The notes below the pieces were generated by a model, which saw nothing but the letters and a program-made list of their open reading frames with translations, made no database searches and was not told where the DNA came from. Positions 18,139-63,108 of a DNA stretch of 64,000 bases are shown piece by piece. Positions within the stretch are counted from its first letter, which is position 1, and each line of letters opens with the position of its first letter. Source of the DNA: Spirochaetota bacterium (GTDB taxonomy: Bacteria; Spirochaetota; UBA4802; UBA5550); assembly GCA_025457915.1 (NCBI GenBank), contig JALOTL010000001.1, positions 1 through 64,000 of the forward strand. The letters run 5' to 3'. Both the position numbers and the translations under genes were made by a program.

Positions 18139-18594
18139 TTAATTTTCTTTATAATAAAAATCTATGTCGAATCCGCCGTAGATTGAATTGAACGACAGGT
18201 TGATGTTCTCGTAGAGGGCCTTCATGGTTATGGGGTCGTCGTTGAATTCCGGTGCGTTGAGCTTGATTTCATGGTTCGCATACTGCATCTGGTTCGCGAA
18301 GGTCCCGGTGATGAGGTTTGCAAGCTCGCCGGCCACATCGTTGTAGCTTTTCCTGATGTACCTGGGATCGTCGCTTCTGATGAATTTTCTGGTAATCAGG
18401 TCCAGGGTCTTTTTGGGCAGGTTTATCATGATCTCCCCGGACAGGGTGCCATCGATTTCCACCGCTACATGCGGGTCCTTGTCCGAGGACTGGGTCTCGT
18501 ACACCTCCTCGACGCTGTTATCGTCGAGAAAATGCTTGAAGATATGGTTTACCGACCTTACGAGATATTTTGAATACCTTTCGTATCCGCTCAT
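18139..18594 (-). CDS. CheX-like chemotaxis phosphatase-family protein
   Basis: A 151-residue single-domain cytosolic protein. It has the CheX/CheC/FliY signature ExxN (Glu90 and Asn93 in NDVAGELANLITG), the pair that positions water to dephosphorylate CheY in CheX. The flanking elements GEIMINLPKKTLDLITRKF and the second beta half fit the family. The frame can also start at a GTG three codons upstream (18603); the ATG with GAGG just before it is preferred. It is not next to other chemotaxis genes, so its response-regulator partner is unknown. It may instead be one of the stand-alone CheX-like regulators found in spirochaetes. Confidence 0.75.
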   Translation of the reverse strand: MSGYERYSKYLVRSVNHIFKHFLDDNSVEEVYETQSSDKDPHVAVEIDGTLSGEIMINLPKKTLDLITRKFIRSDDPRYIRKSYNDVAGELANLITGTFANQMQYANHEIKLNAPEFNDDPITMKALYENINLSFNSIYGGFDIDFYYKEN

Positions 18595-18796
18595 CTTCCT
18601 CACCGGACTTTACGGGACTACCTTACAGGCGTGCTGTGATTATGCAGGCCCCTTTCCAGATATTCACACAATAGAGCACTACATATTCACGACCCTGTCA
18701 AAATACCATACTTCTTATAAAAAAATCAAGAATAAATATGATCGCCGTCAGAAGCGCTGATATAATAAGCGGAAAAACAGCCACTATCTATATTAC

Positions 18797-19017
18797 GGGC
18801 ATCATTATAAATTAGATTTTCCATAATAAAACCATTGAAAAAACTAATGCGTGATCACAAAAACGGTAGTTTTTGTGCCTACCATAGGGCGCTAGTATTG
18901 AAAAAACCAGCTTATATGTTGGTTTAAATTGAATAAGCTGGTTTTTATGACCGCCCTAATTTATACATTGAAAGTACTCACAAGGGAGCACCTGTTTTGA
19001 TTATTATAGGTTCCCTT
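18797..19017 (+). repeat. dispersed intergenic repeat, copy A (interrupted)
   Basis: First of four copies of a roughly 110-bp repeat (others at 47247-47356, 49281-49391 and 63016-63108). The left half contains TATAAATTAG (18806-18815), whose partner CTAAT...TTATA is split by a 107-bp insertion. The right half holds the second hairpin, AAGGGAGC (18982-18989) against GTTCCCTT (19010-19017), with one G-T pair. No gene was found in 18604-19107; apart from this repeat and the promoter at 19052 that gap shows only AT-rich DNA. Confidence 0.85.
18849..18955. mobile_element. 107-bp hairpin-rich insertion with 5-bp target duplication
   Basis: Aligning copy A with copy B shows extra DNA between CTAAT (18844-18848) and a second CTAAT (18956-18960); copy B has a single CTAAT there. 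The ends are imperfect inverted repeats (GCGTGATCACAAAAAC against GCGGTCATAAAAAC). Inside are two perfect hairpins: CACAAAAAC (18856-18864) with GTTTTTGTG (18869-18877), and AAAAACCAGCTTAT (18902-18915) with ATAAGCTGGTTTTT (18933-18946). TAGGGCG (18885-18891) also pairs with CGCCCTA (18952-18958). It carries no gene, so it looks like a MITE-type element; the longer hairpin could act as a terminator in both directions. Confidence 0.7.
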
Positions 19018-19051
19018 ATATTAAAATTAATAGATAAAAATAAATTTATAC

Positions 19052-19107: not shown

Positions 19108-19605
19108 ATGCCCACAAAAAGCCAAATAATAAACGGCAGGAAAGCCTTTGTCGAATTGAAGTTCGGCCCGAACTGGAGCTACATCTCAACGGTCAGGAAC
19201 TTTATAATAAATTTTCTGGCCATAACCCTCTTTGACAAGAAAAGGGCCGATCATATCGCCATGGCCGTGAACGAGCTGATTGAAAATGCCATCAAGTATT
19301 CCGACAGGGACGGCATAGATATCAATCTCGAGGTCTTCAGGAACAAAAAAGACGATACAATTAAGGTTATGGTCTGCAATCACGCGAAAAAGAACGAAGT
19401 GGAAACACTCAAAAAGATCCTGGACGAAATAAACAGCGAACCGCCCCTCGAGGCTTTCATGAAGAGAATGAGGGACAGCGCGATCGCGGAATGCAAAAAA
19501 AGCAACATAGGGCTGGCGCGGGTAAGGTACGAATCAAACGCGAAGATTTCCGCGGATTATGAAAATGGTTTCGTGAAGGTGTTCGCCGAATTTGCTGAAA
19601 AATAG
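19108..19605 (+). CDS. HATPase-domain regulator (anti-sigma-factor-kinase-like)
   Basis: A 165-residue cytosolic protein with a GHKL ATPase fold. The N-box is NELIENAIKYS (Glu56 to Asn60). The later part differs from standard RsbW/SpoIIAB kinases: it has a helical insert (EVETLKKILDEINSEPPLEAF) and ends in GLARVRYESNAKISADY. It resembles small HATPase proteins found next to a STAS protein in cyanobacteria and spirochaetes (slr1658-like, from memory). It is the first gene of an operon with a STAS protein 13 bp downstream and an HD-GYP protein, so a partner-switch role in which it binds or phosphorylates the STAS protein is likely. Confidence 0.75.
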   Translation: MPTKSQIINGRKAFVELKFGPNWSYISTVRNFIINFLAITLFDKKRADHIAMAVNELIENAIKYSDRDGIDINLEVFRNKKDDTIKVMVCNHAKKNEVETLKKILDEINSEPPLEAFMKRMRDSAIAECKKSNIGLARVRYESNAKISADYENGFVKVFAEFAEK

Positions 19606-47174: not shown

Positions 47175-47246
47175 ATCAGCTCCATATCAATATCTTTGAA
47201 ATGTCTATGAATAATACATGCCGGTTATAATTCAATTATTAATTAT

Positions 47247-47356
47247 GGGCACATCTATAAATTAGATTTTTCATTATAAAACCGCTGGAAAAACTAATTT
47301 ATACATTGAAAGCACCCACATGGGAACATCCTGATTTGATTATTAGAGGTTCCCAT
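47247..47356 (+). repeat. dispersed intergenic repeat, copy B (intact)
   Basis: The best-preserved copy, 110 bp. Hairpin 1 has TATAAATTAG (47256-47265) and CTAATTTATA (47294-47303), ten perfect pairs. Hairpin 2 has ATGGGAAC (47320-47327) and GTTCCCAT (47349-47356), eight perfect pairs. Compared with copies A and C, the A-T pair near the base of hairpin 2 is swapped to T-A in both arms. Confidence 0.88.
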
Positions 47357-47397
47357 CTCTCACTTTTAAAAACCTGGAAATTCAATCCCGTCATATA

Positions 47398-49111: not shown

Positions 49112-49280
49112 TTTGATTTCGCCCCTTCATGAATTCATGAATAAAAAAGAAAATACATAATAGCTTTTTTAATTTTTTTTTCAATCATATTTAATAATGC
49201 TTGCTTATAAAAAAAACTTGAAAATAATCATTGAAAAATTAAGTTCCGTTATTTATTAAATTTATTACTTTTTCATATAT

Positions 49281-49391
49281 AAGGGAACTTCTAATAATCA
49301 AATCAGAATATTCCCTTGCGGGTGCTTTCAATGTGTAAATGATATTTTTCAGCGGTTTTTATAATGAAAAATCTAATTTATAGAGACACCC
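49281..49391 (-). repeat. dispersed intergenic repeat, copy C (inverted)
   Basis: This copy runs in the opposite direction to B. Hairpin 2 is AAGGGAA (49281-49287) against TTCCCTT (49311-49317), seven perfect pairs. Hairpin 1 has kept one arm (CTAATTTATA, 49373-49382), but the other has diverged. An outer GGGTG/CACCC pairing may extend hairpin 1. The whole gap 49112-49446 between divergent genes holds this repeat and AT-rich DNA with no gene. Confidence 0.82.
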
Positions 49392-49446
49392 ATAATCCTT
49401 TTTTATGTCTCCTGAGAGAATTTAATTCCATAATCGAGGTATTTTG

Positions 49447-62926: not shown

Positions 62927-63015
62927 CGTAAAAGCAGAGGTTTAAATTATATAGACCCATTTTTCTGTCAATAAAAAATATTTATTTTTTGCTATTAAAG
63001 AAAAAACTGTTTTAT

Positions 63016-63108
63016 GAGCACATTTATAAATTGGATTTTTCATTATAATAAAACCAATGAAAGTGCCCGCAAGGGAATATCCTGATTCGATCATTAGAGG
63101 TCCACTTA
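63016..63108 (+). repeat. dispersed intergenic repeat, copy D (partly deleted)
   Basis: Shares the left block (TATAAATTGG, then TTTTTCATTATAA) and the right block (GAAAGTGCCCGCAAGGGAA, then GATCATTAGAGGT) with copies A-C, but the middle with the right arm of hairpin 1 is missing. One arm of hairpin 2 (AAGGGAA, 63071-63077) is kept while the other (TCCACTT) is mismatched. It is thus a decayed copy. It sits in the gap between rplM and the LPP20-like gene. Confidence 0.8.

Follow-up and report, generated by a model that had tools for sequence, protein, structure and literature searches.

The window analysed here, a stretch of 64,000 nucleotides from a Spirochaetota bacterium (contig JALOTL010000001.1, positions 1 to 64,000), carries a composite repeat in the gap between two divergent genes, encoding a CheX-like protein (18139-18603, minus strand) and a HATPase-domain protein (19108-19605, plus strand). 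The composite (copy A) and the short copies of its outer repeat comprise the following features.

18793..19020, plus strand: composite element, an outer B-type MITE with a nested A-type MITE and TTAC/TTAT flanks (about 24 homologous composites in the genome)
18797..18848, plus strand: left part of the outer B-type MITE, including the left TAAT; left end GGGCATC.., consensus GGGCACCTCTATAAAT (aligned with 26 or more short copies; a sister IS5-lineage IS has matching ends)
18845..18848, plus strand: left 4-bp target duplication TAAT (single TAAT at the corresponding place in short copies)
18849..18956, plus strand: A-type MITE nested in the outer repeat, 108 bp long, with consensus ends GGGTGATCACAAAAAC / GTTTTTGTGACCGCCC (genome copies; solo copies L025, L031 and L038; same terminal inverted repeat, TIR, on an intact IS5-family IS in genome G003)
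18856..18877, plus strand: insert hairpin 1, with 9-bp perfect arms (18856-18864/18869-18877), the 5' arm being part of the left TIR
18902..18946, plus strand: insert hairpin 2, with 14-bp perfect arms (18902-18915/18933-18946) and a 17-nt loop
18957..18960, plus strand: right 4-bp target duplication TAAT (single TAAT at the corresponding place in short copies)
18957..19016, plus strand: right part of the outer B-type MITE, with a second hairpin and right end ..AGGTTCCC (alignment of copies)
47242..47369, plus strand: short copy of the outer MITE, copy B (sequence comparison)
49251..49396, minus strand: short copy of the outer MITE (sequence comparison)
63007..63108, plus strand: diverged short copy of the outer MITE (sequence comparison)

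The short B-type MITEs at 47242-47369 and 49251-49396 lie about 2 kb apart on opposite strands and form an inverted repeat pair.

Comparison of copies A and B confirms the filled and empty sites noted in an earlier, sequence-only reading of the locus. Copy B contains CTAAT once (..AAAAACTAATTTATACATTG..), and copy A reads ..AAAAAACTAAT-(107 bp)-CTAATTTATACATTG.., with CTAAT on both sides (18844-18960). The clean insertion and the target duplication described in that reading are both real, but their lengths had to be revised. The insert spans 108 bp (18849-18956, consensus GGG...CCC) instead of 107 bp, and the duplication encompasses 4 bp (TAAT) instead of 5 bp, the C being the last base of the insert itself. 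This fifth base is assigned to the element because neither the copy L112 nor the intact sister IS in genome G035 shares it. The latter reads TTAA/GGG...CCG/TTAA (slashes mark element ends), and an element in G032 reads AATTA/GGG...CCC/ATTA, with an A at the disputed position of the left flank.

Perfect 4-bp target pairs were observed for the composite (TAAT), L025 (ATAT), L110 (ATAA), L112 (ATTA) and the ISs in G003 and G035 (TTAA in both), and three A-type copies presented imperfect pairs (TCAT/TTAT in L031, TAAT/TGAT in L038, none in L102). Most copies of the outer MITE have TTAT on both sides, which fits a 4-bp target, and their TTAT flanks showed no left-right covariation that would prove such a target copy by copy. 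The terminal inverted repeats attributed to the insert were also borne out: in the consensus derived from the copy alignment they are 16 bp long and alike at 14 of 16 positions (GGGTGATCACAAAAAC / GGGCGGTCACAAAAAC), the left end of the window copy having mutated to GCG.

Copies of both repeats and their order of nesting

The genome to which the window belongs (3.66 Mb, 50 contigs, 96% complete) was searched with positions 18760-19010 for composites and with copy B for short copies; the searches scored a limited number of candidates, and all copy numbers are lower bounds. They identified at least about 24 composites in which the insert and the outer repeat share an identical junction and orientation, with 74-86% identity to the window copy, two of them (L023 and L024) presenting internal deletions of the insert. 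The outer repeat was also recovered in insert-free form, as at least 26 short copies matching over most of their length. Among the matches listed there was a single solo insert (L025, ATAT/GGG...CCC/ATAT), as well as a truncated remnant (L026). The insert, which the sequence-only reading had treated as an event in copy A, hence recurs in at least about 24 composites and as solo copies. With the junction common to about 24 composites, what the window holds is one member of an amplified set of composites, as opposed to a recent insertion at this locus.

Each layer is also found on its own in related genomes. Two inserts lacking the outer repeat, at 79% identity, are present in a spirochaete MAG from another family of the same order (G036), and genus g3 of the window's family has outer-type elements that lack the insert (L032 and L033). 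A scan of a contig collection for the left hairpin of the insert, from which the window genome's own records were perhaps excluded, returned only the two solo copies of G036. Given that each repeat also exists without the other, the nesting is a true one, in agreement with the earlier proposal of a MITE-like element inserted in an older repeat.

Insertion sequences with matching ends

The insert has the same ends (GGGYGRTCACAAAAAC) as an intact 1.3-kb IS5-family IS in G003, a genome of the same family; this provides in a relative the transposase with matching ends that the sequence-only reading had suggested looking for. This IS reads TTAA/GGGCGGTCACAAAAAC...351-aa transposase ORF...GTTTTTATCACCGCCC/TTAA, and its transposase matches NF033581 (transpos_IS5_4; E 1.8e-82, 276.9 bits against a cut-off of 140), as well as PF01609 and PF05598. 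The insert-end pattern was matched in 8 of 46 genomes of the order, with no matches for a reversed-pattern control.

The outer repeat shares its ends (GGGMACCTCTAWWAAT) with a sister IS5 lineage. Their pattern (GGGCACCTCTATAAAT and GGGAACCTCTAATAAT) was matched in 18 of the 46 genomes, again with no matches for the reversed control, and the sister IS of G035 carries the outer repeat's TIR (TTAA/GGGAACCTCTAAAAAT...GGTTCCG/TTAA) and encodes a transposase that shares 44% identity with the G003 enzyme. Since their ends match the G003 and G035 ISs respectively, the two layers of the window element are a MITE A inside a MITE B, stemming from two sister IS5 lineages. By analogy with these relatives, both MITEs would have been mobilised in trans by an IS5-type transposase. 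No partner transposase for either repeat was found in the window's own genome (assembly 96% complete), and the elements are probably inactive relics now, because transposition in trans requires such an enzyme.

Two further observations concern these IS lineages. In G003, an A-type IS copy (L119, G003:C104) lacks the second half of the transposase gene, and the sequence that follows resembles, by eye, an IstB-like (IS21-type) gene. B-type ends (GGGMACCTCTAWWAAT) present 14-51 exact sites per genome in G022, G024, G033, G028, G005 and G011, and in G024 and G033 they often fall at contig ends; the family is therefore abundant in this order, and it probably causes breaks in assemblies.

Spread of the composite

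The account that we propose, with a probability of about 90%, is that the 108-bp insert originated as a non-autonomous derivative of an IS5-family IS and transposed into MITE B, which goes back to a sister IS5 lineage. Its target would have been a TAAT within the right arm of B's first hairpin, with duplication of these 4 bp. The resulting composite would then have multiplied to about 24 copies, partly through transposition as a unit from the ends of B and partly because copies recombined or underwent gene conversion with one another. The window copy would be one old, mutated composite that came to lie between the CheX-like gene and the divergent HATPase-domain gene.

Divergence from the consensus is similar for the insert (0.076) and for the outer parts (0.089) of the composites (p 0.06), and distances between inserts correlate with those between left flanks (Mantel r 0.46, p 0.0009), which is what spread as a unit would predict. 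No correlation was detected between insert and right-flank distances, and the outer parts of the composites do not form one clade (AU p 0.019; 13 label changes on the outer tree), although the underlying trees are weak (117 and 109 columns). The polyphyly of the outer parts and the uncorrelated right flank indicate that more than unit spread from one composite was involved. In a comparison chosen after the trees had been seen, the window copy has 10 differences from L004 over 114 outer positions and 20 over 108 insert positions; the corresponding numbers for L002 are 22 and 8. Re-insertion at one site, precise loss or gene conversion could each produce this mosaic pattern.

Repeated independent insertion, in which A-type MITEs entered one TAAT hot spot of B-type MITEs many times and always in the same orientation, would account for the polyphyly of the composites. 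It would also fit the placement of the window copy, with an insert that groups with L002/L003 (100/99) and an outer part that groups with L004 and the short copy L084 (100/94), and the A-type elements found in or beside B-type ends elsewhere (L102 and L140 in G022, L104 in G032). We nevertheless regard it as unlikely. Site and orientation are common to all 24 composites, whereas the nestings in other genomes use other sites, and a topology holding L001-L003 together on the outer tree was not rejected (AU p 0.145). Furthermore, the right flank of L004 resembles composite L021 close to the insert and is identical to L084 further out, which looks like recombination. The shared site and orientation and this mosaic flank lead us to favour unit spread plus gene conversion.

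The A-type elements located inside or directly beside B-type ends in G022 and G032, at L102 (1480-1680), L140 (1-63) and L104 (1481-1516), occupy sites different from that in the window, and could mean that one MITE type has a preference for the other. It may be speculated, with considerable reserve, that one MITE lineage repeatedly homes into its sister lineage, using a fixed hairpin site in this genome and different sites in further spirochaetes of the order, and is then handed from one resident copy to another by gene conversion, the MITEs serving as mutual landing pads.

The converse order of events, which the earlier reading had named as its refutation, has the long form as the original and all short copies, including those in the window, arising by deletion between the TAAT repeats; it is very improbable. 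The short copies do retain exactly one TAAT, as slippage between direct repeats would give, and the short copy L084 is placed among composites on the outer tree. The solo inserts outside the outer repeat, the insert-free outer-type elements of another genus and the different cognate ISs of the two layers all argue against it, and it was rejected as a general account; individual short copies may nonetheless have arisen by secondary loss.

The two perfect hairpins described earlier (9- and 14-bp arms) are both present, and none of 200 shuffles folds as well as the region (z -3.9). A role for the insert as a bidirectional transcription terminator or structured RNA, in line with the earlier suggestion that it was kept as a terminator between divergent operons, could draw on these stable hairpins with their A-runs and T-runs, but is still less probable: compensatory changes in its stems do not exceed those in shuffles (2 vs 2.8), no terminator within the insert was called by the scan (whose 8-nt loop limit excludes hairpin 2, with a 17-nt loop), the gaps in which composites lie are mixed (10 divergent, 11 tandem and 3 convergent, as assigned by a crude ORF caller) and palindromes are expected in MITEs anyway. 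Since the flanking genes diverge, a terminator at the window composite would not be downstream of either. Structural selection on the insert was rejected in the absence of excess stem covariation, as was membership in a known RNA family, with no Rfam match in the window at gathering score.

In the outer repeat, covariation was detected among short copies (15 cells against 6.9 expected) and not among composites, and relatedness of the copies is its likely cause. As a separate observation, 16 of 25 short copies (L071-L096) lie between divergent genes, a proportion from a crude ORF caller that looks high.

Comparison with known systems

The window element is a well-resolved nested MITE of IS5 origin, and thus represents new members of a known, ordinary kind of mobile DNA that change no concept. 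The analysis names parent ISs for two palindromic repeat families that are abundant in a spirochaete order that has received little study, and the exact pair of empty and filled sites fixes the ends of the insert and its 4-bp target duplication. A composite MITE at about 24 copies also provides a natural record for asking how elements without a transposase spread. The titles, abstracts and term-searched review that made up the literature consulted were general MITE papers, and none of these described the window element or a similar nested composite.

REP/RAYT systems are likewise palindromic dispersed repeats, but the one Y1 transposase detected in this genome has another palindrome (GGCGCCGATTCGAATCGGCGCC) around it, and mobilisation of the Y1/REP type was rejected. 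This RAYT-like protein of 219 aa (L101, G000:C20:54486-57635) is encoded among several copies of that perfect palindrome, which make up a separate REP-type family. ERIC-like repeats exist in long and short forms. They resemble the window element by description, enterobacterial intergenic repeat units such as ERIC being characterised as dispersed palindromic sequences, about 100-200 bp long, in intergenic DNA (PMC2759123), and differ from it in that the parent ISs have been identified here.

The transposase of the intact relative that carries the insert's TIR places it in the IS5 family (NF033581). Classical IS5 favours YTAR targets; the duplications observed here are 4 bp of A/T (TTAA, TAAT, ATAT, ATAA and ATTA). 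The closest parallel is provided by the MITEs of IS5-family ISs, which are short, lack a transposase gene, share TIRs with a full IS, generate target duplications and occur in many intergenic copies. In the case at hand, the insert measures 108 bp, contains no transposase gene and was found in about 24 composites and one solo copy in its own genome; its TAAT duplication is defined against the empty site of short copies, with ATAT, ATTA and ATAA at other copies; and ends shared with autonomous ISs were identified for the insert (G003) and for the outer repeat (G035). What sets it apart is that two sister MITE types are nested and that the composite itself is present in about 24 copies. This copy number, the parent ISs identified for both layers and the A-in-B and A-beside-B placements in other genomes are its less usual features.
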